Part shown: in pieces, positions 2,191 through 15,326 of the stretch
Numbering within the stretch: the first letter of the stretch is position 1
Layout: every line of letters starts with the position of its first letter
NCBI GenBank assembly: GCA_902793285.1
Contig: CADBCV010000019.1
Location: forward strand, 1 to 37,670
DNA length: 37,670 nt
Direction of reading: 5' to 3'
From: Oscillospiraceae bacterium
Lineage (GTDB): Bacteria > Bacillota > Clostridia > Oscillospirales > Oscillospiraceae
Notes under the pieces: generated by a model
Databases searched by the model: none
Seen by the model: only the letters and a program-made list of their open reading frames with translations
Told to the model about the DNA's origin: nothing
Program-made: the position numbers and the translations under genes

Positions 2191-2266
2191 GCTGGTATAG
2201 CTCAGTTGGTAGAGCAGCTGATTCGTAATCAGCAGGTCGTGTGTTCGAGTCACATTACCAGCTCCA
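2191..2266 (+). tRNA. tRNA-Thr (anticodon CGU)
   Basis: A full cloverleaf. The acceptor strand GCTGGTA pairs with TACCAGC, followed by discriminator T and an encoded CCA (2264-2266). The anticodon arm GCTGA/TCAGC (2217-2233) encloses loop TTCGTAA, giving anticodon CGU at 2224-2226, which reads ACG. The T arm GTGTG/CACAT encloses TTCGAGT. Everything from 2221 to 2266 is the left att repeat of the integrated element. The mature tRNA is therefore half chromosomal and half element-derived, but its sequence is restored. Confidence 0.97.
2221..2266 (+). repeat. attL: 46-bp direct repeat inside tRNA-Thr
   Basis: Bases 2221-2266 are identical to 8379-8424 (offset 6158). The repeat runs from the last base of the 5' anticodon stem through the CCA end. 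The identity stops at 2220 (G against A) and at 2267 (C against G). The strand exchange is therefore probably in the anticodon loop or T arm. Confidence 0.95.
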
Positions 2267-2309
2267 CCCGCAAGCCTTTGTGTATCAAGGGTTTGCGGGT
2301 TTTTCTTTG
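2267..2309 (+). terminator. Element-borne terminator directly behind tRNA-Thr
   Basis: The 14-base arms 2267-2280 and 2286-2299 pair along their whole length (two G-U pairs) around the loop TGTAT, then TTTTTC. It starts at the first base after CCA. Because this DNA belongs to the element, it replaces the original tRNA terminator, now left at 8425. Confidence 0.88.
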
Positions 2310-2346
2310 CTTTGTCGCCACCTTTGAAAAAAGCGCCATTTCGCAA

Positions 2347-2370
2347 AAGTACAGACCAAAGTACAGACAT
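2347..2370 (+). promoter_or_regulatory. Integrase arm-type binding sites, left end
   Basis: Two direct copies of AAGTACAGAC start at 2347 and 2359 (12-bp spacing), the second extended to ACAT. The same word occurs twice at the opposite end of the element (8227 and 8248). This arrangement is expected for arm sites bound by the N-terminal domain of a lambda/Tn916-type integrase. Confidence 0.7.
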
Positions 2371-2398
2371 GAGAGAAAACCAGACATAAAACGCAAAG

Positions 2399-2425
2399 AA
2401 GCCGCCCTTTTTCGGGGCGGCTTTT
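2399..2425 (-). terminator. Terminator of the integrase transcript
   Basis: AAGCCGCCC and GGGCGGCTT form a hairpin around a T-rich loop, 20 bases beyond the integrase stop codon. Read leftward it is followed by TTCTTTGCG, a weak U tract. It could also stop rightward transcription (CTTTT after the stem). Confidence 0.65.
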
Positions 2426-2444
2426 GCTATCCCTGTATGAAGAT

Positions 2445-3731
2445 TTACGCCTGCTTGATGGCGGCGGCGACGATCCCGGCGGCACGGCGCTTGCTTTCCT
2501 CATCGGCGTGAGAGTATACACGAAGCGTTGTCGCCTTGTCAGCGTGTCCAAGCACCTCAGACACCGAAGCAATGTCAGAGCCGTTCACGATGGCAAGGGA
2601 GGCGAAAGAGTGCCGGAGCTTGTGCGCGTGGATTTCAATACCGTGCTTCTTGCCAAATTTCTGAAAGAACCTGTTCACGGCGTCCGGGTGCATGGGTTCG
2701 CTGTTGCCCCGCTCCGTAAAGACATAATCAGGAATGGCGATCTTTTCAAACTGCAAAGGCTGCTTGTCTTTGATAAGCCTTGCCTTGCGTCTGGACGTTG
2801 CCGCGATCTGTTCATTGCGGTATTGCTTGAGAAGGGAGGCGACCTCTTGCGAGAAGTAAACAACCCTTTCCCGGCCTGTTTTCGTCACGTCGATATATAC
2901 GCCCTTTTCCGGGGTATAGCAGATATTTTCCTTTATCAAGGCTGAGTTATCTTTGAGGTCAATGTTTTCCCATCTCAAAGCGCAAGCCTCACCGCGCCGG
3001 ATGCCTGTATCAATCAGCAGACGCACGAAGCAGCGCCATTTCAACGATTCATCGTCCAGCAGGGAGAGAATGCTTTTCAATTCGTCGGCGGTGAAGGCCT
3101 CCACGCCTTTTTTCTGTTCTTCCTTGCGCTGCCGGGGGCGCTGTACCCGATCCATCGGATTCCGGGAAATAGATTCGTCAAGATATGCCTGCTTGAAAAG
3201 CTGATTGCATGTCACATAGATTCCGGTAATCGTGGAATGAGCAAGGCCGGATTCTTTGAGCTTCAAAAAGAATGCGCTCAGTTGTGCAGAGCTAATATTT
3301 TGAATGGGCAAATCTCCAAAGGCCGGATAAAGATGTTTGTCCAAACTGTACTGATAGTATGCGCGTGTTTTTTCAGCACAGTTGATTTTCTTTGCGGGCA
3401 TGAATACCGATTCACCATACTGCTTTAAGGTTTTAATCTTTGCGGCTTCCTCGGCTGCCCTCCTGGCCTCCTCGGCTGCTTTCGCTCTTTCCTGTGCGGC
3501 GATTTCCTTTTGCACTTTTCGTGTAAGAACTTCACCGCACGCGCAGCGCCGTTCAAAATCGGCGACAGCTTTGTCAAGCTCACGGAGCGCGGTTTTTTCT
3601 GCGACAGGATCCCCATTCGCTTTCAGCGGCCAGTAAAAGCGCTCTGTGTATTGCTGTTCACGTCCGGCGGAGACAATGATTTTCCAAAACTTGCGACCGT
3701 CCGCCGTTTGCATCAAACGAGTACTCGCCAT
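2445..3731 (-). CDS. int: Tyrosine recombinase (site-specific integrase) of the element
   Basis: A 428-residue phage/Tn916-type integrase that would catalyse attP x attB recombination at tRNA-Thr. An N-terminal arm-binding region (about 1-75) is followed by an Ala/Glu-rich helix, a SAM-like core-binding domain (about 105-190) and the catalytic domain. All catalytic residues are present: Arg in TGIRRGEA, Lys in VTKTGRE, HxxR in HKLRHSFAS, His in VLGHAD and the nucleophile in LRVYSHAD. The ATG at 3731 is preceded by GGAGGT six bases upstream; an open extension to 3788 lacks such a site and overlaps the repressor gene. It lies four bases after the repressor stop, so the two are co-transcribed toward attL. 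Confidence 0.95.
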   Translation of the reverse strand: MASTRLMQTADGRKFWKIIVSAGREQQYTERFYWPLKANGDPVAEKTALRELDKAVADFERRCACGEVLTRKVQKEIAAQERAKAAEEARRAAEEAAKIKTLKQYGESVFMPAKKINCAEKTRAYYQYSLDKHLYPAFGDLPIQNISSAQLSAFFLKLKESGLAHSTITGIYVTCNQLFKQAYLDESISRNPMDRVQRPRQRKEEQKKGVEAFTADELKSILSLLDDESLKWRCFVRLLIDTGIRRGEACALRWENIDLKDNSALIKENICYTPEKGVYIDVTKTGRERVVYFSQEVASLLKQYRNEQIAATSRRKARLIKDKQPLQFEKIAIPDYVFTERGNSEPMHPDAVNRFFQKFGKKHGIEIHAHKLRHSFASLAIVNGSDIASVSEVLGHADKATTLRVYSHADEESKRRAAGIVAAAIKQA

Positions 3732-3735
3732 AGTT

Positions 3736-4257
3736 TTACCTCCATCCCGTATTGGCTCCTCGCACTTCCTCATAATAGCCAATTTCAAACATTGAGTGTT
3801 CTTGCTCTAAAAGTGTTTCAAAGGCGACATAGTACGTTTTTTCCCCAAGAGTTTCTTTCAAGCTGTGAAGCGCTAAGAATTTATCAAAAAATGCTTTCAT
3901 TTTTTCGCCCTTGAAAACGATTGAAGTTTCATTATCACGTCTACGCAATTCCATTACTTTTTCCTTTTGGATGGTCGGCGGATCATCAATAAGCCGATCT
4001 AAGTAAGATAACCACTGGCTGGCTCTGATTTCTCTCCGCACGTCATTCGCTCCACACAATGAGTCTAATGATACGCCCAAAGCTTCAGCAAGTTTGTACG
4101 CTGTTTCAAGGGATGGTGTTTTGCCTGTCGCATTTTCATAGCTGGATATTTGGCTTTGCTGCACTCCTGCTTCTTCTCCAAGCTTGCTTTGATTCCAGCC
4201 TTTTTTCTCTCTTGCGGTTCGTAGATTGCGACCGAATGTGTCTATGCTAAATTCCAT
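3736..4257 (-). CDS. XRE-family (CI/Stl-like) transcriptional repressor
   Basis: A 173-residue regulator. The N-terminal HTH (about 5-65) reads FGRNLRTAREKKGWNQSKL, then GVQQSQISSYENA and the typical LAEALGVSLDSL end. The C-terminal 100 residues are helical and charged, without the S24 peptidase serine/lysine dyad of LexA-like repressors, so induction would not be by RecA self-cleavage. In satellites of the SaPI type such a repressor (Stl) is relieved by a helper-phage protein; that is inference here. AAGGGGG at 4266-4272 precedes the ATG. It sits at the divergent control region and probably represses the rightward promoter at 4353-4381. Confidence 0.88.
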   Translation of the reverse strand: MEFSIDTFGRNLRTAREKKGWNQSKLGEEAGVQQSQISSYENATGKTPSLETAYKLAEALGVSLDSLCGANDVRREIRASQWLSYLDRLIDDPPTIQKEKVMELRRRDNETSIVFKGEKMKAFFDKFLALHSLKETLGEKTYYVAFETLLEQEHSMFEIGYYEEVRGANTGWR

Positions 4258-4279
4258 CTAAGCGCCCCCTTTCTCTTGA

Positions 4280-4308
4280 ATTTTATATCATTTTTATCTC
4301 TATGTCAA
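4280..4308 (-). promoter_or_regulatory. Leftward promoter for repressor and integrase
   Basis: On the minus strand, TTGACA (4308-4303), a 17-base spacer and TAAAAT (4285-4280). It lies in an AT-rich gap about 23 bases upstream of the repressor start. Inverted ATTTTTAT/ATAAAAAT words around it may be operator sequence. Confidence 0.7.
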
Positions 4309-4352
4309 TATAAATATCTCAATAAAAATAATAAAATATATAATTCTGTTGA

Positions 4353-4381
4353 TTGATATAATAATCTGAAAAAGATATAAT
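4353..4381 (+). promoter_or_regulatory. Rightward promoter of the element's main operon
   Basis: TTGATA at 4353-4358, a 17-base spacer and TATAAT at 4376-4381. The sequence GATATAAT occurs twice here (4355 and 4374). It lies 29 bases before the first rightward start and is the obvious target of the divergent XRE repressor. Confidence 0.78.
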
Positions 4382-4409
4382 TTAGCCAAACCAGAAAGGG
4401 GGCGGTACA

Positions 4410-4577
4410 GTGACCGACCAAGAGAAAATCAGAGCGGCGCGTAATGAATACGCACGACGCTATCGGCAGAAGCACCCGGAGCGCGTCAAAGAAGCACAAG
4501 AACGATACTGGGCGCGGAAATACGAAGCGGCAGCACGGAAAGGAGATGGGGGCGATGCCGAGAAGAGCGCTGATTGA
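4410..4577 (+). CDS. Small charged phage-type protein, function unknown
   Basis: A 55-residue open frame with a GTG start at 4410 and AGAAAGGGGG just upstream (4393-4402). The product is highly charged and helical (MTDQEKIRAARNEYARRYRQ, then KHPERVKEAQERYW). Similar R/K/E-rich ~50-residue proteins with a K-x-P-E-x-V-x-x-A-Q-x-x-Y-W core occur early in Gram-positive phage and element operons, in my recollection. It has no catalytic motif; nucleic-acid binding is plausible. It is the first gene of the rightward operon and overlaps the next gene by 23 bases. Confidence 0.65.
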   Translation: MTDQEKIRAARNEYARRYRQKHPERVKEAQERYWARKYEAAARKGDGGDAEKSAD

Positions 4578-4767
4578 CCCGGCGGCAGCTTTTCAGCCAA
4601 TCAATGGGGCAGCGCGAGTCACGGGGTTTGCGGCAAGTTACATTCGCAAAGGTGTTCGAGAAGGGACGATTCCAGCGATCAGAGTCGGTGCCGGCGCTTA
4701 CATGATTGACATGAAGGCATTTCTCTCTCAGCTTCATCAAATGGCAGCAGAAGGGAGCGAATCATGA
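4555..4767 (+). CDS. Excisionase/AlpA-like helix-turn-helix protein
   Basis: A 70-residue protein made of one winged-helix DNA-binding domain of the excisionase/MerR type: an initiating INGAARVTGFAASYIRKGV helix pair, then REGTIPAIRVGAGAYMIDMKAFLSQL, which is the characteristic G-x-I-P-x-x-R-V wing and C-terminal helix. AAGGAG at 4539-4544 sits ten bases before the ATG at 4555, so the longer frame from 4444 is unlikely. It is the best candidate for the recombination directionality factor pairing with the integrase; a transcriptional activator role (AlpA) is the alternative. It overlaps the next gene by four bases. Confidence 0.8.
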   Translation: MPRRALIDPAAAFQPINGAARVTGFAASYIRKGVREGTIPAIRVGAGAYMIDMKAFLSQLHQMAAEGSES

Positions 4768-5156
4768 AGAAGAAACGAAAAGCCGCCCAGGTGTTGCGGC
4801 ACCCAGACGGCGGCGGACAGCAAATAGTTTTACCAGGCTTTGAGCTATCCAAATCAGATTTTACCATACAGGCCGAAAAGAATCAAGCCGCTATTGCAGG
4901 ACTACTCTTGACCGGCGCGAAGAATGCAATCACACTGTCAGAGCTTGCGCGGATTACAGGGAAGGACACACGAACGGTCCGCCTCATGATTCGACAGGAT
5001 CGAGCAAAAGGATTTCCGGTTTGCGTGGATAACGCGCACGGATATTTCATGCCCGCCACTGAGGGAGAAAAAAGCGCGTGCGTGCGATCTATGCGACACC
5101 GGGCGCGAGAGGTTCAACGGACCGCGGATAACATCGAAAGGGGGCAGGTGCTTTGA
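4764..5156 (+). CDS. Winged-helix DNA-binding protein, phage/element type
   Basis: A 130-residue protein, basic at both ends. Residues about 45-105 form an HTH: LLLTGAKNAITLSELARITG, then KDTRTVRLMIRQDRAKGFPV with an R-x-x-R-x-x-I recognition helix and a wing (GYFMPATEGE). The C-terminal part (RHRAREVQRTADNIE) is a charged helix. Such proteins are common in the early region of Firmicutes phages near replication genes. The ATG overlaps the excisionase-like stop (ATGA), indicating translational coupling. A replication or regulatory role is inferred from position only. Confidence 0.75.
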   Translation: MKKKRKAAQVLRHPDGGGQQIVLPGFELSKSDFTIQAEKNQAAIAGLLLTGAKNAITLSELARITGKDTRTVRLMIRQDRAKGFPVCVDNAHGYFMPATEGEKSACVRSMRHRAREVQRTADNIERGQVL

Positions 5157-5359
5157 ACAAGTTTGCTGTATGGGTATCACGCTCAGAAGACTTTGGCGAC
5201 CTCCTGGACACCTATAATGATGTTCTTTCTTATCACGGACTAACCTGGGAGCAAGCAATGACTTTATTCGAGCTATCGCTTCGAGAGGGCTTTTTGCTCG
5301 TCTTGTGCAAAGAAGAGCGGGAAGAAGAGGGCGACGATGCCGAGACGGAAAGCGGCTGA
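5153..5359 (+). CDS. Small acidic protein, function unknown
   Basis: A 68-residue acidic protein starting at a TTG that overlaps the previous stop (TTGA); AAAGGGGGCAGG just upstream supports the start. The sequence (FAVWVSRSEDFGDLLDTYND, then LTWEQAMTLFELSLREGF) is predicted helical, with a poly-Glu/Asp tail. I recognise no family. Its place between two DNA-binding genes and its four-base coupling suggest it belongs to the element's control or replication unit. Confidence 0.65.
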   Translation: MNKFAVWVSRSEDFGDLLDTYNDVLSYHGLTWEQAMTLFELSLREGFLLVLCKEEREEEGDDAETESG

Positions 5360-5699
5360 ACATTGCGCTATTCGCCCCTGGTTATCGGCCCGACAGGATT
5401 GCAAAGAACGCCGCTTTCTGCAAATTGGGGATTCCTTATTCTTTTCGGATAGATTTCAACAGCTCTCATCAGGGGCGCAAATGTGCTATTTATTTATGTG
5501 TATGGAGTCCGCTGGGCGCCGGGACTTTATATTTCCTCTTAGTAGCGCAAAAAAATACAAAATTGCTCCCCGTTCATTTCGACGCTATCTCTCAGAGCTG
5601 GAAGAAGCCGGATTTATTAAAAAGGTGAGCCTCGCAAACCTGAGGAAGCCAAATGAATACTCGTTCGCTCTGTCGTGGAAAGAGATTCGTCCCCCTTAA
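5337..5699 (+). CDS. Winged-helix protein resembling a short replication initiator
   Basis: A 120-residue protein. The core (about 30-115) reads IGDSLFFSDRFQQLSSGAQM, then CYLFMCMESAGRRDFIFPLS, then KKYKIAPRSFRRYLSELEEA, then GFIKKVSLANLRKPNEYSFA. This is the layout of the winged-helix domain at the N-terminus of RepA_N-like initiators (F-x-x-L-S-x-x-A-x-x-x-Y, HTH, then a G-x-I wing). No primase or helicase domain is attached. It ends 33 bases before a cluster of palindromic repeats (5733-5872), which it may bind as initiator or regulator. It overlaps the preceding gene by 23 bases. Confidence 0.7.
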   Translation: MPRRKAAEHCAIRPWLSARQDCKERRFLQIGDSLFFSDRFQQLSSGAQMCYLFMCMESAGRRDFIFPLSSAKKYKIAPRSFRRYLSELEEAGFIKKVSLANLRKPNEYSFALSWKEIRPP

Positions 5700-5732
5700 T
5701 AACGATACCCTCTGGCAATATATAGTATATTC

Positions 5733-5872
5733 TGTGCCATTCTGGCATAGTTCATCAAAACAGAAAAAATTCACTGGATGTACCGAATTGGCACAGTGTG
5801 AGGAATAAAGAACATCAATCTGTGCCATTTTGGCATAAGAAAGCGTACCAATACTGTGCCAAAATGGCATAG
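5733..5872 (+). repeat. Palindromic iterons, candidate replication origin or operator
   Basis: Three copies of TGTGCCANNNTGGCATA start at 5733 (NNN = TTC), 5821 (TTT) and 5855 (AAA). Each contains the dyad TGCCA-N3-TGGCA. A half site in opposite orientation (ATTGGCACA) lies at 5787-5795. They sit in a 230-bp AT-rich gene-free interval between the Rep-like and TerS-like genes. This is where SaPI-type satellites carry their origin. An operator array for the neighbouring winged-helix protein is the alternative. Confidence 0.8.
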
Positions 5873-5929
5873 CCAAAATAAACAATTTTGAGCGGTTATA
5901 AGCGCTTTTCGAGACAGGAGGTGCAAGTA

Positions 5930-6301
5930 TTGACCGCAAAGCAAAAGAGGGCGCTTGCGTGCCTCCTGACGGCCTCCACGGTACAAGAGGCGGCAAGGAA
6001 AGCGAAAATATCATATCCGACTATGCGCCGATGGCTATCGGATGACAAGGATTTTCGCAGCGCGTACAACAGCGCAATGCAGGAGCTTGTCGAGAGCGCG
6101 GCAGCACAGGCGCGGGCGGGTATGACGGAGGCTGTAGCCGTACTCCGTGAGGTTATGGCCGATGTTGAGACCGCGCCAAATACAAGAGTGGCAGCGGCAC
6201 GAACTGTCATTGACAGCGGCGCGCGCCTCGTTGAAATGCAGTCCTATGAGAGCAGAATTTCCGAGCTGGAGCGTGTCCTTTTGGAGGAAAAAGAAAAGTG
6301 A
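5930..6301 (+). CDS. Small-terminase-like HTH protein (phBC6A51/TerS type)
   Basis: A 123-residue protein. The N-terminal HTH (MTAKQKRALACLLTASTVQE, then AARKAKISYPTMRRWLSDDK) is followed by an Ala-rich helical region (AAAQARAGMTEAVAVLREVM) and a C-terminal coiled coil (YESRISELERVLLEEKEK). This is the layout of phBC6A51-type HTH proteins and small terminase subunits, which choose the pac/cos site and oligomerise. AGGAGG at 5916-5921 is eight bases from the TTG at 5930; the longer frame from 5888 lacks a site. No large terminase follows. In a satellite, an own TerS would redirect a helper phage's terminase; that is inference. A plain DNA-binding regulator is the alternative. Confidence 0.7.
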   Translation: MTAKQKRALACLLTASTVQEAARKAKISYPTMRRWLSDDKDFRSAYNSAMQELVESAAAQARAGMTEAVAVLREVMADVETAPNTRVAAARTVIDSGARLVEMQSYESRISELERVLLEEKEK

Positions 6302-6525
6302 ATATTGCAAGTAGAATTCAGCAAATAGAGCAGATTATACAGAAGCGCGGAAACGAGAGCGTACTTGTTACGTTTCGGGACGGGGGCTCACGCCGAATGA
6401 AAGCGGCGGATTTGATACCCATGCTTCGGGAACCAGACGTTGATTCCATCATAAGCATTGACGGCACAGGTGGAGGCGCAAGCGGTCTTTTGATCGAGCT
6501 TGAAAGGGGACTGATTCAAGAATGA
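6298..6525 (+). CDS. Small phage-type protein downstream of terS, function unknown
   Basis: A 75-residue protein with a GTG start overlapping the previous stop (GTGA). An N-terminal coiled-coil segment (RIQQIEQIIQKRG) is followed by a beta-rich part (SVLVTFRDGGSRRMKAADLI) and a Gly-rich stretch (IDGTGGGASG). Proteins of this size and layout, with an V-T-F-x-D-G-x-x-R-R core, occur next to terminase genes in Firmicutes phages in my recollection. No enzymatic motif. Tight overlaps on both sides show it is translated as part of the TerS-like operon. Confidence 0.62.
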   Translation: MNIASRIQQIEQIIQKRGNESVLVTFRDGGSRRMKAADLIPMLREPDVDSIISIDGTGGGASGLLIELERGLIQE

Positions 6526-6662
6526 GGGCGCGTCTATTTGAACGATTAGCGGCGCTGGAGCGCCGAGTAAAAGCGTCGTTTTGCCGCCGCTGGGATGGTG
6601 ATGAAGATCATTTTATCACGGCTTTAGGCGTCGAGGCAGAAGTGCTGAAATCTTTTGAGTGA
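6522..6662 (+). CDS. 46-residue protein, function unknown
   Basis: An ATG at 6522 overlaps the preceding stop (ATGA) and opens 46 codons to a TGA at 6660-6662. The product starts MRARLFERLAALERRVKASF; it is basic and helical at the N-terminus and acidic at the end (DGDEDHFITALG). The stop-start coupling is the main support. I recognise no family. It is followed by a 113-base gap (6663-6775) with no convincing gene. Confidence 0.5.
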   Translation: MRARLFERLAALERRVKASFCRRWDGDEDHFITALGVEAEVLKSFE

Positions 6663-6775
6663 AGAAACGCCGATGGTTCCACCGGATATGATTTATTAGC
6701 CATATTGAACACCCAGGCTCAAAAAGTTTGGAATAACTACACTTATGAGGGCGAATTGCCCAGAAAGGAAAACAA

Positions 6776-7123
6776 ATGATTGAAAAAGAACCGAGTGTAA
6801 CCCTTGCAAACGGCGAGGAAATCCCGCAAAGCCAGCTTGCGGGCTTTCACGCGAGAAACGCGGCGACAATGCGGACATACCAGGAGAAGCAGGCGGCAAA
6901 GCCTCAGAGCGAATTTTGCCCCTTCAGCAGCGCATTAAACCCCGTCTGTCGCGGCGACGATTGCGCCCTGCATGTTAAGGCGGGATGCGCTCTGAAATTT
7001 ATCTTTGACCGGCCACCGGTAGTGAAGAGCACACAAGGGAAACGCTGCCCCATTTCCGGCCAGCTATGCGCCCCGACTTGCGCCCTCGGCGCAAGCGGCG
7101 CTTGCGTGCTTACGTCAATCTGA
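6776..7123 (+). CDS. Cysteine-rich protein with a duplicated C4 motif
   Basis: A 115-residue protein preceded by AAAGGAAA. The N-terminal 48 residues are hydrophilic. The rest holds eight cysteines in two related clusters: C-x9-C-x4-C-x7-C (CPFS...C...CALHVKAGCAL) and C-x6-C-x3-C-x7-C (CPIS...C...CALGASGACVL). The shared frame CPxS-C-CAL-G-C-L indicates an internal duplication and two metal-binding (zinc or iron-sulphur) units. There is no signal peptide or membrane segment. Short proteins with one such CPF...C...CAL motif occur on Firmicutes phages and plasmids in my recollection, without known function. Confidence 0.72.
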   Translation: MIEKEPSVTLANGEEIPQSQLAGFHARNAATMRTYQEKQAAKPQSEFCPFSSALNPVCRGDDCALHVKAGCALKFIFDRPPVVKSTQGKRCPISGQLCAPTCALGASGACVLTSI

Positions 7124-7153
7124 AAAGCCAAAATTGAAAGGAGCTATTTACAA

Positions 7154-7840
7154 ATGGAAAAATCTGAACTTGCATACCGCGGAGCCGTCCGCAAACTCGA
7201 TGCAGCAGTGAAACGCGCCCGTGAGCTTCACAAAGCGGAAATTCAAAAGCTGGATTCCGCAAAAAGGAACCTGGACAGCTATCCCCCGTCACGGGATGCA
7301 ATGCAAGCGGCACGGCGACAGATTGCCCAGGGGGAGCTTGACCAGGTGAAAAACGGATTTCGCCATGCCGTCGAGCAGATTTATATTGATTTCGATATGA
7401 CCGTCGCAGCGGCCCGCCGGGAGCTTGTTAAGGCCCTGGGCGAAGCTGATACCTACAAGGCGAAAGATGTTGACGCGGGGGCGCTTGCCTTGATTCAGTC
7501 CCATGTTATGCGCCCGAAAGATCTTGCTCAGATGGCCGAGGATTTCAGCGAAAATGCCGCCGTCCTTGCCCTTGTGCGGCAGGAAGCCAAACGGCAGTGG
7601 GAAGCGGCCACCGCACCGGAGGAAGCTGCCACCCGTGTGGAATTGGCGCGAATCATCGAAAACGCCAAGACAACCGGCGAACGCTTTTTGAAAGGCTTTG
7701 ACGATCTGAACCAGGGCGCGCACACTCTTTCCGGGCGCAACAATTATGGAGATTTCACGTCAAGCGACCGGCTTTTATTCACGTCTCTTGACAGTTGGGA
7801 AGCGCTTGTCGATGGCCTCATCCCCGGCGACGATGTATAA
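7154..7840 (+). CDS. 228-residue helical protein, function unknown
   Basis: Start ATG at 7154 with AAAGGAGCT upstream. The product is almost wholly helical and charged: an N-terminal coiled coil (about 1-60, SELAYRGAVRKLDAAVKRAR) and a second from about 70 to 180 with Ala/Glu/Lys heptads. A shorter acidic C-terminus ends DGLIPGDDV. There is no signal peptide, membrane segment or catalytic motif. Codon use fits the element. The position in the packaging-like half of the element and the composition would suit a scaffold or capsid-remodelling role, but nothing in the sequence proves it. It is the longest rightward gene of the element. Confidence 0.7.
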   Translation: MEKSELAYRGAVRKLDAAVKRARELHKAEIQKLDSAKRNLDSYPPSRDAMQAARRQIAQGELDQVKNGFRHAVEQIYIDFDMTVAAARRELVKALGEADTYKAKDVDAGALALIQSHVMRPKDLAQMAEDFSENAAVLALVRQEAKRQWEAATAPEEAATRVELARIIENAKTTGERFLKGFDDLNQGAHTLSGRNNYGDFTSSDRLLFTSLDSWEALVDGLIPGDDV

Positions 7841-7886
7841 GCCGAGAGCTTCACGGTGAAAAGCAAAGATGAAAAGGGGGGATAAT

Positions 7887-8075
7887 ATGACACCCGGCGA
7901 AAAAGCTTCAAAGACGGCGCGAGAACGCCGAGAGCGCCGAGAACAGGCTTTGCGGGAACGTGTACGGGATAGTGAGCAGGCAATAGCCGTCTGTCGTGCG
8001 ATTCGTGACGATGAGAACGCCACTGACGCCGACAGGCTGGAAGCTATCCGACTTTTGAAAGAATTCATCGCATAA
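7887..8075 (+). CDS. 62-residue charged helical protein, last gene of the element
   Basis: The ATG at 7887 follows AAAAGGGGGG; an in-frame ATG at 7869 lies before that site and is less likely. The product is Arg/Glu-rich (KTARERRERREQALRERV) and ends ATDADRLEAIRLLKEFIA, a helix resembling the A-x-x-R-L-x-A-I-x-x-L pattern in helical oligomerisation segments. No family is recognised. A strong terminator starts ten bases after the stop. Confidence 0.62.
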   Translation: MTPGEKASKTARERRERREQALRERVRDSEQAIAVCRAIRDDENATDADRLEAIRLLKEFIA

Positions 8076-8084
8076 GATAGGCGA

Positions 8085-8110
8085 GGCCGGGGATGTTCCC
8101 CGGCCTTTTT
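8085..8110 (+). terminator. Terminator of the element's rightward operon
   Basis: GGCCGGGGA (8085-8093) pairs with TCCCCGGCC (8097-8105) across a three-base loop, followed by TTTTT. Confidence 0.93.
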
Positions 8111-8378
8111 ATGATGTAATAATTGAACATCCAAGTGTTTTCCAGCTACTCTTCACGCGCACGCGCGAGATGAGACGATTTTTCAAATAACAAAGTCAAC
8201 AAAAGGTCAAACAGAAGGACAAACAGAAGTACAGACATGCAAAGCAAAAGTACAGACATGGGGTTATGTGAAGGTATAGCAAGCTATAACATGGGGAACC
8301 CGTAAAGCCGCTTGACACCTTGCTTTTTCAGTGATAAGCTATGCCAAGCAATCGAGGCTTATAAAACGACAAAAATCA
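8111..8378. other. Non-coding right arm of the element
   Basis: 268 bases without a credible gene. It holds the right-hand arm sites (8227-8260), a small inverted repeat GTATAGC/GCTATAAC near 8272-8289, and TTGACA at 8312-8317 with a poor -10 (TAAGCT at 8335) pointing out of the element. It corresponds to the P' arm of the attachment site. Confidence 0.6.
8227..8260 (+). promoter_or_regulatory. Integrase arm-type binding sites, right end
   Basis: Two direct copies of AAGTACAGACATG start at 8227 and 8248, with looser copies (GAAGGACAAACAG) just before. They match the pair at 2347-2370 near the left end. The pairing of identical words at both ends, inside the att cores, supports arm sites for this integrase. 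Confidence 0.72.
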
Positions 8379-8424
8379 ATTCGTAATCAGCAGGTCGTGT
8401 GTTCGAGTCACATTACCAGCTCCA
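8379..8424 (+). repeat. attR: 46-bp direct repeat, 3' tRNA-Thr fragment
   Basis: Identical to 2221-2266. It lacks the 5' half of the tRNA and cannot fold as one. It is the displaced chromosomal 3' end of the original tRNA-Thr gene. Confidence 0.95.
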
Positions 8425-8452
8425 GCCCGGGATCTTGAAAAGGGTCCCGGGC
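8425..8452 (+). terminator. Original tRNA-Thr terminator, displaced by integration
   Basis: A 12-bp stem begins GCCCGGGA and closes with TCCCGGGC around GAAA, then CTTTTCTTTT. It starts right after the attR CCA, exactly where the element's own terminator sits behind attL. Confidence 0.85.
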
Positions 8453-9105: not shown

Positions 9106-12036
9106 ATGCTGAAACTCACTCAGATCAAAAAGGACTATGAAGCCGGCGACACCGTCGTGCACGCGCTCAAGGGCGTGGATCTGGAGTTCCGGGAGAACGA
9201 ATTTGTCGCGATCCTCGGCCACTCCGGCTGCGGCAAGACGACGCTTTTGAACATCATCGGCGGGCTCGATCAGTACAGCTCGGGTGATCTCATCATCAAC
9301 AACAAGTCCACCAAGCGCTTCACCGACGCGGACTGGGACTCCTACCGCAACCACTCCATCGGCTTTGTCTTCCAGGCCTACAACCTCATCCCGCACCAGA
9401 CGGTGCTCGCCAATGTGGAGCTTGCCCTCACGCTCTCGGGTGTCGGGACCTCCGAGCGGCGCAGGAGGGCGGCCGAGGCCCTCGAGAAGGTGGGACTCGG
9501 CGATCAGCTCTCGAAGAAGCCGAGCCAGATGTCCGGCGGCCAGATGCAGCGCGTCGCCATCGCGAGAGCGCTTGTCAATAACCCCGACATCCTCCTCGCG
9601 GACGAGCCGACCGGCGCCCTCGATACCGAGACCTCCATTCAGATCATGGACCTTTTGAAAGAGATCTCAAAGGACAAGCTCATCATCATGGTCACGCACA
9701 ACCCCGATCTCGCCACCGACTACGCAAGCCGCATCATCAGGCTGCGCGACGGCGTCATCACGGACGATTCAGCCCCCTATGCCTCCGGCAGCACCGAAGA
9801 GGCTGTGACGGTGAAGACAAAGCGCAAAGACAAGACCTCCATGAGCTTCTTTACGGCGCTCGCCCTCTCGACCAACAACCTTCTCACCAAGAAGGCGCGC
9901 ACCATCCTCACCTCCTTTGCCGGGAGCATCGGCATCATCGGCATTGCCCTCATCATGTCGCTCTCCAACGGCATCCAGAACTACATCGACAAGGTGCAGG
10001 AGGACACCCTCTCGAGCTACCCCATCACCATCCAGGCCGAGAGTGTGGACATGACCAGCATGATGACCTCGCTCATGGGCATCCAGGCCGAGGCCGAGGG
10101 CAACCAGCACGAGAGGGACGCCGTCTACTCCAGCACCGTCCTCTACGACATGATGAACTCCATGGTCTCGGCCGACATGCAGACCAACAACCTCAAGTCC
10201 TTCAAGCAGTTTATCGAGAGGGAGGATTCTGACATTGCCCCGCACATCAGCTCCATCCAGTACAGCTACGATCTCGACATGAACATCTATGCCGAGGACT
10301 GCGACGGCGCCATCGTCAAGACCGACGTGACCGATCTCATGCAGCGCGCCATGAGCACCACCTTCGGCGGGGATTACAGCAGCTACTTCTCCACCTTCGG
10401 CCAGGCCTACAGCGTGATGAACGCCTGGCAGGAGATGCTGCCCGGAGAGAACGGGGAGCTCATCAGCCCCGTCGTCAAGGCCCAGTACGATGTCATCTAC
10501 GGCAAGTGGCCGGAGCGCTATGACGAGGTGGTGCTGACGGTGGATAAGAACAACAATGTCTCCGACCTCACGCTCTACGCCCTGGGCTTAAAATCCAGCG
10601 CCGCCCTCTCCGAGGACATGGAGACCTTCATCAACCAGGAAAATCTCACGAGCGAGCTGGAGCACTGGAGCTATGAGGAGGTCTGCGACCTGAAGCTCCG
10701 CTACATCTACCCGACGGACGAGTACCGCTATGACGAGGAGGAGGGCGTGTACACCAACGTCGCGGACGAGACGCTCGGCCTGCCGACGCTCTTCTCCAAC
10801 GGGCTTCCCATCCGCATCGTCGGCATCGTGCGCCAGAACGAGGACGCCATGTCCGGCATGATCGCGAGCAGCGCCGTGGGCTATACCCACAGTCTCGTGG
10901 AATACGTGGTGCGGGAAGCGGAGAAAAAGCCCCTCGTCGCGCGCCAGCTCCACGACCCGGGGACCGACGTGCTGACCGGCCTTCCGTTTCTGGACGAGGA
11001 GGACGAGACGCTCACCAAGTCCCTCAAGGTTGAGGCCGCGAAGGACTACATCGCGGGCGCCGACAATGAGCAGCTTGCGGATCTCTATGTGGAGTTCATG
11101 ACCGTCCCGGACGACGGCTACATCGAGGAGCAGCTTGACGAGCAGATGAAGGATCTGACGCGCAAGGACATCGAGGACATGGTCCTGCAGTACTATCCGG
11201 GCTACGCCTCCTTCCTCAAGGAGATGGACGACGACACGCTCATGGAGTACATGCGCACCATGTTCACCGAGACCGTCAAGGAGCAGTACGCTATCCAGAT
11301 GCGCAATATGTACGCCTACCTCTCGGACGAGTCGCTGGCGCACGACTTCTCGCTTCTCTCGCTGGAGGAGGAGGACTACATCTGGCTCTATGACCACGCC
11401 ATGCCCCCGGTCTACTCTGACAGCACCCTCAAGAAAAATCTCAAGGCCCTCGGCTATGTCGATCTCGAGAGCCCGAGCACCATCAACATCTACGCCACCA
11501 CCTTTGAGGACAAGGACGCCATCGCCAAGGCCATCACCGCCTACAACGACTCCGTGCCCGAGGAGGACGAGATCGAGTATACCGACATCGTCGCCATGCT
11601 CATGAGCTCCGTGTCTACCATCATCAACGTCATCAGCTATGTGCTCATCGCCTTTGTCGCGATCTCCCTTGTGGTGTCGTCCATCATGATCGGCATCATC
11701 ACCTACATCAGCGTCCTCGAGCGCACCAAGGAGATCGGCATCCTGCGCGCCATCGGGGCCTCGAAGCGCGACGTGTCCCGCGTCTTCAACGCCGAGACCT
11801 TCATCATCGGGCTTTTCGCGGGGCTCATCGGCATCGGGACGACGGTGCTGCTCAATATCCCCATCAACATCGTCATCCACGATATCACGAACATCCAGGC
11901 CATCAACGCAAGCCTCCCGCTCATCGGCGGGGTCGGCCTTGTACTTGTGAGCGTCTCGCTGACCTTCATCGCGGGCCTCATCCCCTCGGGTCTCGCCGCA
12001 AAGAAGGACCCGGTCGAGGCGCTAAGGAACGAATAA
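9106..12036 (+). CDS. MacB/FtsX-type ABC transporter, ATPase-permease fusion
   Basis: A 976-residue fusion of a LolD/MacB-class ATPase and an FtsX-like permease. ATPase domain 1-235: Walker [10 protein letters not shown] (38-46), signature SGGQ (143-146), Walker B ending in D166-E167, and H-loop THNP. One membrane helix near 270-295 is followed by about 540 acidic extracytoplasmic residues. Three C-terminal helices (about 840-976) contain the FtsX signature around [20 protein letters not shown]. This mechanotransmission class exports peptides or antibiotics, or controls envelope enzymes, rather than importing solutes. The ATG at 9106 is chosen for GAGAAGGG just upstream. No two-component system is adjacent, so a Bce-type role is not supported. 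The unusually large outer domain may bind substrate. Confidence 0.9.
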
Positions 12037-12304: not shown

Positions 12305-14329
12305 ATGGCAAAGCATCTCGCGCCGACGCCGAAGCACGAGCTGAATTTCATAAAGAAGAAGCCCGCGCACGCCAATGGGCAGCGGGCGGCAGCGCCCGCA
12401 CGGCACAGCAAGGATGCGCCCACAAAACGCGCGGCGCGGAAGCCTTTGAAGCTGCCCGCCTTCCTCACCCGCCTTGACGCGGAGAACACAGCGTCCACAG
12501 CGGGGGACCGCCGCGCGCTCATCTTCGCCGGGATCGCCGCGGTGCTTCTCATCGCGCTGCGTTTTCTCCCGCTCGCGGGCTGGATGGTCCCGGCGGCTTT
12601 TGCGGTCCCGCTCCTTTTCGCCGCGGCGGAGCATGTGCTGCGCGCGTTCGGGGAGATCCGGAACCGCCGTTACATCAATGACTCCCTCCTCACCTGTCTC
12701 GCCGCCGTGCTGCTTTTTGCAACCGGGCTCTATACCGAGGCGGCGCTGCTTCTCATCCTCACTACTGTTGTCCTGTATCTGGAAACCCGTTTCGCCGAAA
12801 AGAGCGCGCGCGAGGAGGCCAGAATATCCGCCATCCTCCCGCGCAGCGCCGCCCTCCTCAGCGAGGAGGGGGAGCAGCGCGTGGACCCCGCCGCGGTCCA
12901 GCCGGGGGATATCCTGCTCGTGCGCGCGGGGGAGCGCATCCCTCTCGACGGCGTCGTGACCGAGGGCATCACCACCATCGACACTGCCGCCGTATCCGGC
13001 CAGCGCTCGCCCTGGGCGGTCAACGCGGGGTACAAGGTCTATGCCGGCTGCCGCAATCTCACAAGCGACATCAAGATCCGCGTCCTGCGCCCATATGACC
13101 GGTCCACGGGGCCAAAGCTCGTCCAGATCGCCGAGGCCGCCGCCGGCTTCGACGCCGAGCAGGAGGTCAGGGCCGCGGCATTCCGGCGTTACTATACTCC
13201 GGCCGCGGCGGGGCTTGCGCTCGTGCTGGGGCTTTCTGTCCCTATCTTCCGGGGCGGCTGGGTGCTCTGGCTTCGGCGCGCTGCGGTGCTGCTCATTCTG
13301 GGGCGCACGGCGGCGGACGGCTTTGCCATCCCGCTTATCTATCGCAAGTCCCTATCCCTCGCCTCCGCTCTCGGCGTGTTCGTCAAGGGCAAGGACTGCC
13401 TTGAAGCCATGGCGCGGGCCGAGACCGTCATCTTCGACAAGACCGGTGCCATCACCGAAGGGCGCTACGCCGTGACGGACGCCTTCCCCGTGAAGATGAG
13501 CGAGCGGCAGCTTCTCGCCATTGCCGCCGCCGCCGAGAGCTTTTCACGTCACCCCATCGCCGCCGCCATCCGCGACGCCGCCGGGGAGCTGGACGAGCGC
13601 ATGGTCAGAGCCGTCAAGATCCGGGAGATCCCCGGCCGCGGCGTGAGCGCCTTTCTCGGCAAGCGCCAGGTCTATGTCGGCAACGCCGCCCTTCTGGAGG
13701 AGCACGGCATCCGTTATACCGTCCCCGCCCGCCCCGGCACGGCCATCCACGTCGCGGTGGATGAGCATTACTGCGGCTACCTCCTCGTGACGGACAAGGT
13801 GCGCCGCCGCGCCTTCGACGCCCTCGAGACCCTGCGCGTCAACGGCGTGAAGAAGCTGGTGCTTCTGACGGGGGATGTCATGTCGGTCGCGCGGCCCATT
13901 GCCTCGCGCCTCAATTTTGACATGCTGCGCGCGGAGCTCCGCCCCGAGGAGAAGGCCAAGGCCGTGGGCTACCTTATGAAGAACAAGGGCCAGCGCTCCA
14001 CCATCGCCTTCGTGGGCGAGGGGGAGAACAGCGGCCGCCTCCTGCGCGGGGCCGATGTCGGCATCGCGATGGGGTCTCTCGGCTCTGACCAGGCCCTCGC
14101 CGCGGCGGACGTGATGATCATGGACCGGGATATCTTCAAGGTCCCGAAGATCTTCATGCTCTCGCGCACGGCCTTTCGCGCGGCGGTGGAGAACTTCGCC
14201 CTCGGCACGGGGGGAAGCGCGCTGCTCGCTCTGCTCGGTGTTTTCGGCGCTCTCTCGCCGCTTGCCGCCGTGATCTTGAGCGCTGCGCTCTCCATGCTGC
14301 TCTTGCTGAATACCCTGCGGATCAAATAA
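12305..14329 (+). CDS. Degenerate P1B-type (CadA/ZntA-like) ATPase
   Basis: A 674-residue homologue of heavy-metal P-type ATPases with most signature motifs altered but an uninterrupted frame. An N-terminal basic tail (about 1-70) has no CxxC metal-binding domain. Paired helices precede an actuator domain (about 160-270). The P-domain aspartate motif DKTG (378-381) is intact, as are HP (416-417) and TGD (522-524). The TGES loop reads SGQR (231-234), so the glutamate needed for dephosphorylation is missing. The CPC metal site in the sixth helix region reads GRT (333-335). The GDGxND magnesium loop reads GEGENS (571-576). It may trap a phosphoenzyme, act on another ligand, or be a sensor. It lies alone between inverted repeats. 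Confidence 0.85.
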   Translation: MAKHLAPTPKHELNFIKKKPAHANGQRAAAPARHSKDAPTKRAARKPLKLPAFLTRLDAENTASTAGDRRALIFAGIAAVLLIALRFLPLAGWMVPAAFAVPLLFAAAEHVLRAFGEIRNRRYINDSLLTCLAAVLLFATGLYTEAALLLILTTVVLYLETRFAEKSAREEARISAILPRSAALLSEEGEQRVDPAAVQPGDILLVRAGERIPLDGVVTEGITTIDTAAVSGQRSPWAVNAGYKVYAGCRNLTSDIKIRVLRPYDRSTGPKLVQIAEAAAGFDAEQEVRAAAFRRYYTPAAAGLALVLGLSVPIFRGGWVLWLRRAAVLLILGRTAADGFAIPLIYRKSLSLASALGVFVKGKDCLEAMARAETVIFDKTGAITEGRYAVTDAFPVKMSERQLLAIAAAAESFSRHPIAAAIRDAAGELDERMVRAVKIREIPGRGVSAFLGKRQVYVGNAALLEEHGIRYTVPARPGTAIHVAVDEHYCGYLLVTDKVRRRAFDALETLRVNGVKKLVLLTGDVMSVARPIASRLNFDMLRAELRPEEKAKAVGYLMKNKGQRSTIAFVGEGENSGRLLRGADVGIAMGSLGSDQALAAADVMIMDRDIFKVPKIFMLSRTAFRAAVENFALGTGGSALLALLGVFGALSPLAAVILSAALSMLLLLNTLRIK

Positions 14330-14516
14330 CTTGCATCTCCCTTTGGGAGAGTGGAACAAGATGCAGGAATGACGCTTTAAGCGACTTCCCTCCTCGCAGC
14401 ATAGCTGCTGCGGCCTCCGCTGCAAACATGCCACTGGCATGTTTGCTTAACGCTGCGGGGTGGCACGGCGCGTACATGACCGCGCCGTGACGGAGAGGGT
14501 TTGCGGGGACATGGCG
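14330..14516. other. Hairpin-rich spacer after the P-type ATPase gene
   Basis: No gene. Three dyads are visible. TGCATCT/AGATGCA (14333-14365) has an inner CTCCC-TTT-GGGAG and may terminate the upstream gene. A perfect 11-bp stem GCAAACATGCC/GGCATGTTTGC spans 14422-14446. CACGGCGCG/CGCGCCGTG spans 14464-14489. The density of hairpins looks like nested repeat insertions. Confidence 0.6.
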
Positions 14517-14575
14517 ACCCTCTCAGTCACCAGCGTGCGCACTGGTGCCAGCTCCCCCAGAGGGGGAGCCAAGGG
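14517..14575 (-). repeat. Dispersed hairpin repeat, copy B (inverted)
   Basis: Reverse complement of the 12066-12125 repeat with few changes. It ends 39 bases before the next gene's ATG. Confidence 0.8.
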
Positions 14576-14614
14576 CACACGCTGTTATCTCTGTGAAGTC
14601 GGGAAGGATATTGT

Positions 14615-15181
14615 ATGAACACCTACGATTTTGATAAAACCATCTTCTACCCCGACAGCTCCGCCTGCTTTATGCGCTTTTGCCTGCTGCGGCACCCCGG
14701 GGCCGTACTGCCGACGCTGCCGAAGACCTTGTGGATGGCGCTGCGCTATGCCCGCGGCAGGGTGGACGCCAGGGCCGTCAAACAGCAGGTCTTCTCCTTC
14801 CTCCCACGCCTCCGGGATCTCGACAGGACTGTCGCCGCCTTCTGGGAGAAAAATGAGCATCGCATCGGCGCCTGGTACCTCGCCCAGAAGCAGAGCACGG
14901 ATCTCATCCTCTCCGCCTCGCCCCGCTTTCTCTTGGAGCCCATCTGTGAGAAACTGGGTGTGAACCTCATCGCGACCGAGATGGACAGGTTCACCGGAGA
15001 GATCCGCGGCCTCAACTGCCACGACCGGGAGAAGGTGCGGCGCTTCTACGCCCTCGACCCCCACGTGAAAACCGAGGCGTTCTACTCCGACTCCCTCACC
15101 GACAGCCCCATGGCGGAGATCGCCGAGAGGGCCTTTCTTGTGAAAAAGCACAGACTTTTCCCATGGCCCGGGAAGCGCTGA
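14615..15181 (+). CDS. HAD-superfamily phosphatase (HAD-IB, SerB-like)
   Basis: A 188-residue cytosolic hydrolase. The catalytic aspartates are in DFDKT at residues 5-9. The helical cap is typical of subclass IB (about 15-85). Motif II is the serine of LILSASPRF. The lysine is expected around CHDREKVRRF, and motif IV lies in AFYSDSLTDSPM, with acidic residues binding magnesium. The nearest described relatives are phosphoserine phosphatase-like enzymes and PAP-type HAD-IB phosphatases; the substrate cannot be told. The ORF ends within the first base of a repeat (15182 onward). It has its own spacer on both sides, so it is probably monocistronic. Confidence 0.88.
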   Translation: MNTYDFDKTIFYPDSSACFMRFCLLRHPGAVLPTLPKTLWMALRYARGRVDARAVKQQVFSFLPRLRDLDRTVAAFWEKNEHRIGAWYLAQKQSTDLILSASPRFLLEPICEKLGVNLIATEMDRFTGEIRGLNCHDREKVRRFYALDPHVKTEAFYSDSLTDSPMAEIAERAFLVKKHRLFPWPGKR

Positions 15182-15232
15182 CCTCCCTTTGGAAAAAGGG
15201 AGGGGGACCGCTTGCGGTGGTGGGATCGATCC
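15182..15232 (+). repeat. Dispersed repeat, CCTCCCTTT...AAAGGGAGG family
   Basis: CCTCCCTTT and AAAGGGAGG form a hairpin, followed by GGGACCGC-TTGC-GGTGG and GGATCGAT. A near-identical copy lies at 37602-37652. A related inverted word (CCCCTTTTTGAAAAGGGG) follows at about 15256-15273. Confidence 0.75.
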
Positions 15233-15291
15233 CCCAGTCGCTTTGTGAAAGCCCCCTTTTTGAAAAGGGGCTTGGAAACGTCAAATGATCG

Positions 15292-15326
15292 CCGGAGTCC
15301 TGCAATCGAGCAGGGCTCCGGTTTTT
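15292..15326 (+). terminator. Terminator insulating the spoIIIA operon
   Basis: A 12-bp stem opens CCGGAG (15292) and closes CTCCGG (15321), then TTTTT. It ends directly before the proposed sigma-E -35 element. Confidence 0.88.

Follow-up and report, generated by a model that had tools for sequence, protein, structure and literature searches.

The 6.2-kb island in the tRNA-Thr gene near the left end of the window (the whole stretch of 37,670 nucleotides that was analysed) is very probably, at a probability of roughly 0.84, an intact TerS-redirecting phage satellite with an organisation like that of the PICIs of Gram-positive bacteria. A preliminary description had proposed a TerS-carrying satellite laid out in this way, and the att repeats, the lines of evidence for TerS and the related islands support the proposal well. 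All of the components that it listed were found again, namely an integrase and an XRE gene running leftward, divergent promoters, and a rightward series comprising xis-like, winged-helix and Rep-like genes, iterons, a TerS-like gene and genes of unknown function. The features are as follows (L numbers denote related loci).

2191..2266 (+), tRNA-Thr (CGT), the target gene, called by ARAGORN
2221..2266, attL core, 46 bp, exact repeat of 8379-8424
2266..2308 (+), terminator just inside the island edge, identical to the tRNA-Thr terminator of genome G072
2344..2371, left arm-type repeats (GTACAGAC), repeat family in common with 8200-8260
2445..3731 (-), tyrosine integrase; PF00589 (Phage_integrase) 1.5e-33, phrog_1 2.4e-66
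3736..4257 (-), XRE repressor in the stl slot; HTH_3 5.2e-17
4280..4381, divergent promoter pair, two 11-of-12 matches
4410..4577 (+), 55-aa ORF, kept in L042, L043 and L051
4555..4767 (+), excisionase-like HTH protein; weak family matches, homologues at the equivalent slot in relatives
4764..5156 (+), 130-aa winged-helix protein (wh130); 71 % to L040, phrog_2113 4.1e-13
5153..5359 (+), 68-aa ORF, kept in L039 and L040
5337..5699 (+), rep120, small winged-helix initiator candidate, 120 aa; HMM family, linked to the origin
5705..5890, origin candidate with four iterons (5731-5749, 5775-5797, which is degenerate, 5819-5837 and 5853-5875)
5930..6301 (+), small terminase subunit TerS, 123 aa; TTG start after AGGAGGT; phrog_4044, fold, TerS-TerL pairs
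6298..6525 (+), 75-aa ORF; 49 % over 45 aa to L039
6522..6662 (+), 46-aa ORF; 47 % to L040
6776..7123 (+), 115-aa ORF; relatives in L049, L082, L120, L121 and L124
7154..7840 (+), 228-aa helical protein (o228), the family marker
7869..8075 (+), 68-aa ORF; 69 % to L039
8083..8107 (+), terminator of the rightward operon
8200..8260, right arm-type repeats, same family as 2344..2371
8379..8424, attR core, 46 bp, exact repeat of 2221-2266

The two att cores share 100 % identity over 46 bp and 98 % over the extended pair (2221-2269 and 8379-8427), and for an exact repeat of 46 bp within 6.2 kb chance is excluded as the origin. The integration into tRNA-Thr that had been proposed from these repeats is borne out, and together with the integrase they identify the island as an integrated mobile element. 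The search for an empty tRNA-Thr site in a related genome, which had been recommended at the outset, succeeded in the closest relative (G066), which has the same left neighbour and where the 15.7 kb examined include the unoccupied site with one copy of the core and none of the island proteins. The GC content of 1-kb segments is 0.47-0.56 within the island and 0.585-0.675 wholly outside it. The arm-type repeats inside the left edge are probably integrase arm sites.

Given that the end of the XRE gene is at 3736, the integrase start was read at 3731, not at the called ORF start of 3788. Predicted promoters at 4308-4280 (-) and 4353-4381 (+), each an 11-of-12 match, diverge, and the region as a whole has 13 promoter matches against a shuffle mean of 5.6. 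The excisionase-like gene (4555-4767), taken alone, has a weak match (phrog_575, Cox, E 0.027). The resulting order, int-stl leftward and xis-rep-ori-terS rightward, is of the Gram-positive PICI type. Virion structural genes are missing from the island; as originally stated, the window proteins scanned, a set that left out the 46-aa and the last 68-aa ORFs, gave no match to families of capsid, portal, large terminase, lysis or transfer proteins. Nor did the window proteins match a relaxase, as expected of an ICE or mobilizable island, capsid genes of the island's own (cf-PICI), a primase family (PICMI, which would also lie at fis and not at tRNA-Thr) or the capsid-morphogenesis genes seen in some PICIs. 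Capsid or conjugation genes between the repeats of relatives would have pointed to a decayed prophage or ICE, and no capsid, portal or conjugation family was recognised there in the relatives surveyed; among relatives, L064 and L085, each with a tape measure, are the exceptions to the lack of virion structural genes.

Gram-positive PICIs have a TerS homologue or a helper pac/cos site, and identification of the product of 5930-6301 as TerS is supported by three lines of evidence. It matches phrog_4044, a terminase small subunit family (1.8e-9), SF6 small-terminase DNA-binding domains are among the top three PDB matches of its predicted fold, which was the structural check originally advised, and a homologue directly precedes the large terminase in six loci (L048, L082, L123, L126, L127 and L128). 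On the other side, the best Foldseek match on the PDB has E 0.013, HTH folds are found among the weaker of the structure matches, Pfam gives a transposase-type HTH (HTH_Tnp_1_2) with scores under the cut-offs, and a TerS sequence profile found no terminase among PDB chains. Relatives of TerS occur in 38 phage records, 35 of them from Streptococcus, and all 18 of these 35 that are listed are named satellite phages.

The search for syntenic elements that had also been suggested yielded 16 TerS islands with att repeats, at different tRNAs and similar in layout and size (5,398-9,950 bp). As 6.2 kb is ordinary for the family (5.4-9.95 kb), the idea of an unusually reduced, minimal satellite falls away, and the contrast drawn with PICIs of 'usually 10-15 kb' was overstated, the average PICI size given in the available part of PMC10803314 being 9.5 kb. 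Two relatives, MT836267.1 and IMGVR_UViG_3300021399_003899, are circular assemblies in virus collections, and both carry TerS, TerL and a 228-family gene. MT836267.1 has a single attP-like core and is apparently of virus-particle origin, from particles treated with DNase. These circular forms are those of relatives, and no excised or packaged form is known for this exact copy; a scan of a viral contig collection with the window proteins, or with alignments led by them, found nothing. The o228 family gene lies near TerS in 10 of 10 fetched family loci, and in phage records the family is limited to a few faecal-virome contigs, outside which rep120 was not found either. The fold matches of o228 were uninformative and its sequence had no capsid-morphogenesis match. 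With synonymous change unsaturated in each case, dN/dS was 0.20 for terS against L039, 0.25 for o228 (L041 against L043) and 0.28 for wh130 against L040, values that reflect purifying selection.

Since genes for integrase, repressor and TerS are of phage type and the draft genome of the host contains other prophage genes, the island might be the decayed remnant of a prophage in which these three survived by chance after the virion genes were lost. This is very unlikely, given the similar layout and size of 16 islands at different tRNAs, the constant company of TerS and the 228-aa protein in the 10 family loci fetched, the limitation of that protein within phage records to a few faecal-virome contigs, and the dN/dS values; judged from these comparisons, the island is not a decayed one-off. 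It is most improbable that the island is an integrative mobilizable element moved by conjugation, with a plain HTH regulator in place of TerS: the Pfam match and the HTH folds would suit such a protein, but the six TerS-TerL pairs and the SF6 domains in the top three of the structure matches argue against it, and no relaxase or transfer family was recognised in the window proteins scanned or the relatives surveyed.

The TerS-redirecting satellite would also have its own replication origin. The rep120 HMM family comprises 12 loci, including the window, and the iteron cluster lies directly 3' of the initiator candidate gene, where the available part of PMC6092414 places the origin of Gram-positive PICIs. 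The motif TGYCAnnnTGRCA has three copies in the island and none in the remaining 31.5 kb of the window. Among relatives the four-iteron framework is conserved, and the iteron cores vary along with the putative recognition helix of Rep. Pac sites of headful phages are often close to terS, and the iterons of the window are immediately upstream of terS, as would be expected if the cluster were a pac site read by TerS and not an origin read by Rep. That the framework also follows rep120 in L065, L067 and partly L068, where a full TerS gene was not found beside it (L066 ends at that point), makes this reading unlikely, as do the covariation with Rep and the position of PICI origins. The first suggestion, that most replication functions are borrowed from a helper, is unsupported in that form; the island has an initiator candidate and a conserved candidate origin of its own, with the host or a helper as possible suppliers of polymerase and helicase.

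In the resting state, the XRE protein would repress the divergent promoters until a helper phage relieved the repression. Excision at the tRNA-Thr repeats would then be the work of the integrase and the excisionase-like protein. Rep, the winged-helix protein of 120 aa, would bind the four iterons just 3' of its own gene for replication by host or helper machinery, and TerS would select island DNA for the helper large terminase and the helper capsids. We infer this order of events and the dependence on a helper, and the large terminase used would be a foreign one. A point against the satellite reading is that, at E 1e-20, its own genome has no member of the TerL group found paired with this TerS, and the two TerLs present there belong to a different family or are remote (22 % to the TerL of L048). 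The 228-aa protein is possibly a second hijack or interference factor.

The layout of Gram-positive PICIs and SaPIs, in part as given in PMC6092414, is that of the island in its leftward integrase and repressor, divergent promoters, rightward xis-like gene, rep, iteron origin 3' of rep and terS, and lack of virion genes. The island differs in its 120-aa initiator, in which no helicase or primase domain was recognised, in having a 228-aa protein and no recognised capsid-morphogenesis homologue, and in the tRNA sites and Oscillospiraceae hosts of its family. Streptococcus satellite prophages (the Javan set, PMC6813308) are 6.4-14.7 kb long, their TerS relatives share 30-36 % among the matches listed, and Javan343 and Javan245 have an integrase and repressor opposite HTH, primase and TerS genes; in contrast to the island, these two examined both have a primase. 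According to the available part of PMC10803314, the Vibrionaceae element PICMI115 (6,110 bp) is about the size of the island, and no capsid remodelling genes were recognised, but PICMIs adjoin fis and use int, alpA and primase, whereas the island lies in tRNA-Thr and has TerS. Possession of both terminase subunits by six relatives (L048, L082, L123 and L126-L128) recalls cf-PICIs, though a capsid gene was recognised neither in the island nor in the surveyed relatives.

The odds appear even that these islands form a separate satellite family of the Oscillospiraceae and their neighbours, whose mark is a unique helical protein of 228 aa encoded near a satellite-type TerS. The hijack kit would be graded from member to member (TerS only, TerS and TerL, or TerS and a tape measure, in one contig with a tail chaperone as well), so that some would re-specify the helper tail besides the DNA. 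Many would have a four-iteron origin of fixed framework whose exchangeable cores are read by the winged-helix initiator of 120 aa, and each island would in this way have a compatibility type of its own. Phage satellites are known chiefly from staphylococci, streptococci, enterobacteria and vibrios, and we did not find an earlier description of an Oscillospiraceae lineage in the literature searched. The Flavonifractor sp. AGMB03687 genome, which contains the member L064, has a record without a metagenome-assembled label, so that induction and packaging could be tested there, as could the role of a tape measure carried by a satellite. The origins are a natural set of matched initiator and iteron variants, and the TerS-carrying lineage, present in 12 of 106 sampled genera of the bacterial family, would extend satellite biology to dominant anaerobes of the gut and rumen.

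The island (2221..8424) is known here solely in its integrated form, within a draft genome of 2.36 Mb (79.5 % complete) of which the window is contig C19. The preliminary description of the island was borne out, as the att repeats, the gene directions and the divergent promoters were all confirmed. The last 46 bp of the tRNA-Thr(CGT) gene are repeated exactly at the distal end of the island, arm-type repeats lie inside both ends, and a divergent promoter pair separates the leftward integrase and XRE genes from eleven small ORFs read rightward. The features that frame it are:

2191-2266, tRNA-Thr(CGT) gene, with the 6.2-kb island after it
8083-8107, terminator closing the rightward ORF series

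TerS relatives are encoded by 10 of the 102 genomes of the genus, including this one (three, in G003, G035 and G069, are weak), and relatives of the 228-aa helical protein that marks the family by six (one weak). An additional TerS place in G035 (contig C178) contains internal stops and island genes are absent around it. Both genes are present in four discrete islands, each in a different tRNA gene.

Table. Discrete islands of the genus with both TerS and 228-aa protein genes (locus; tRNA gene; exact repeats)
L039; tRNA-Pro; 47 bp
L040; tRNA-Ser; 23 bp
L041; tRNA-Met; 45 bp
L043; tRNA-Thr(GGT); 46 bp

Across the bacterial family, the 228-aa protein was found in 13 of 400 sampled genomes (this one included), corresponding to 12 of 106 genera, and TerS was near its gene in all 10 loci fetched from the 14 places outside this genome, the distance in L118 being 3.5 kb. 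Two loci, L121 and L124, use the same tRNA-Thr(CGT) target, and their integrases are 69 % and 55 % identical, respectively, to that in the window. The 16 TerS islands bearing att repeats range in size from 5,398 to 9,950 bp. When 96 further proteins from such islands were compared with Pfam, 14 families were matched, none of them virion or transfer families, and in PHROGs no virion or transfer function was among the 25 listed of 47 matches. Several relatives have a sigma-70-like gene near TerS (L039 9699-10520, L081 3202-4083, L085 1248-1865, L115, L116, L118 and L125; Sigma70_r4, 8.5e-17, in L039), and in L040, L041 and L043 a 132-149-aa protein (weakly phrog_36 in L040) is found near the 228-aa gene in its place. 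A 9.0-kb tRNA-Arg island (L042, G064:C3, 5305-14376) has related integrase, 55-aa and winged-helix genes, and no TerS was found in it. Neither this lineage nor any phage satellite of the Oscillospiraceae was found in the open-access papers searched, a coverage outside which most subscription journals and preprints fall, and the term 'satellite' is absent from the part of PMC12946183 covered.

A framework resembling a replication origin lies 3' of rep120, the 120-aa winged-helix initiator candidate (5337..5699), where a TAGTATATC-type box is followed by four iterons, spaced approximately 45, 43 and 33 bp, and then by AGCCAAA. It was seen in the window, L040, L041, L047, L064, L065, L066 and L067, in part in L068, and was not clear in L039, L051 and L063. 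The framework is constant across loci and the iteron core is variable, and the putative recognition helix of rep120 varies in step with the core, though over few loci and with kinship not factored in.

Table. Iteron core and putative rep120 recognition helix (core; helix; loci)
TGCCA..TGGCA; PRSFRRY or PRSMRRY; window, L041, L064
GGTCA..TGACA; DKSFRRY; L040
GCCCG..CGGGC; RSTAQAA, three times, in close relatives; L047, L066, L067
CCCCC; TTTFERL; L068
CTCGC; PAGLWRG; L065

In L065 (Pseudoflavonifractor gallinarum), rep120 and the four-iteron origin occupy 9974-10550, and neither integrase nor TerS was recognised within the 20-kb locus; they may be either a remnant or a piece of an independent replicon.

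The genome contains two TerL genes. One (PF03354, contig C4) adjoins portal and tape-measure genes, and the other (PF04466, contig C25, L059 and L060, about 16.7-31.4 kb) is near an endolysin gene and a gene for a phrog_511 internal virion protein, with no TerS recognised beside it. Both fall short of 1e-20 against the TerL that accompanies the island's type of TerS. Of the 102 genus genomes, 13 encode a TerL of that group, in one case within the island L048, and an SPP1-type portal (PF05133) is near it in both loci tested (L101 and L102). Phages with this TerL group are at most candidates for the helper type.

Circular relatives were also found. MT836267.1, from human faeces in Mexico, has a 124-bp terminal repeat. 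Its integrase shares 197 of 392 aligned residues with that in the window, and it also codes for both terminase subunits (TerS and TerL), an XRE protein, an AAA_25 primase-helicase-like protein and proteins related to the 115-aa and 228-aa ones; capsid and portal were absent among the five ORFs scanned with Pfam. The 46-bp core that L043 has at tRNA-Thr(GGT) occurs in it once, without a mismatch, and it lacks a tRNA gene, the pattern that would be expected of attP. In the part of PMC8361208 covered, 0.22-µm filtrates of faeces from Mexican children were treated with chloroform and DNase and sequenced, with assembly k up to 125. MT836267.1 fits this study, a 124-bp overlap being equal to k-1, and it probably stems from it, the accession being absent from the text covered. 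Chromosomal DNA packaged by gene-transfer agents can be present in virus-particle preparations from these bacteria, according to the part of PMC12946183 covered; packaging of an integrated copy would not yield a circle holding a single att core. The second circular relative, IMGVR_UViG_3300021399_003899, has a 107-bp terminal repeat and encodes TerS, TerL and a 228-family protein; it also has a ParA-like gene (9892-10632, by eye) and is possibly plasmid-like. Further related viral contigs are not circular (L081, L085, L086, L087, L088 and L128, as well as L125 and L126, of each of which a part was covered).

Tail genes were seen in two relatives. A tape measure gene (13406-15325; PF20155, 1.3e-45; phrog_1068, 4e-127) sits between the att repeats of the 9.95-kb TerS island L064 of Flavonifractor sp. 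AGMB03687, where no other tail gene was recognised, and it is possible that this satellite re-sets tail length. The faecal-virome contig MT837364.1 (L085, 1921-6736) combines TerS and a 228-family gene with a tail chaperone of the Gp15 type (PF06854, 5e-20). It also encodes a 717-aa protein that resembles a tape measure by eye and has no match in Pfam.

In G066, the closest relative as judged by the right-flank gene (88 %), the tRNA-Thr and the rRNA-methyltransferase-like left neighbour (78 %) are both in place and the att core occurs once. None of 65 island query proteins was matched within 15.7 kb, of which 13.5 kb lie downstream of the tRNA. The ABC transporter that is the right neighbour in the window is located elsewhere in G066, hence the two genomes differ in gene order on the right flank. 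In G072, too, there is one core, with island proteins absent across 16 kb. Paired copies of the core further apart are seen in other genomes; in G026 (contig C47) two perfect tRNA-Thr(CGT) cores (631-676 and 36722-36767) lie 36 kb apart, possibly enclosing a full prophage at the same site. At 2266-2308, immediately within the left end of the island, lies a terminator that has the same sequence as the one after the chromosomal tRNA-Thr gene in G072 (88/88 bp including the core). It is 97 % identical over 96 bp to that of G056, the other flanks of which differ, but is unlike its counterpart in the closest relative, G066. On this sequence comparison, the island appears to have carried the terminator in from another species of the genus, which would be a trace of movement between species.
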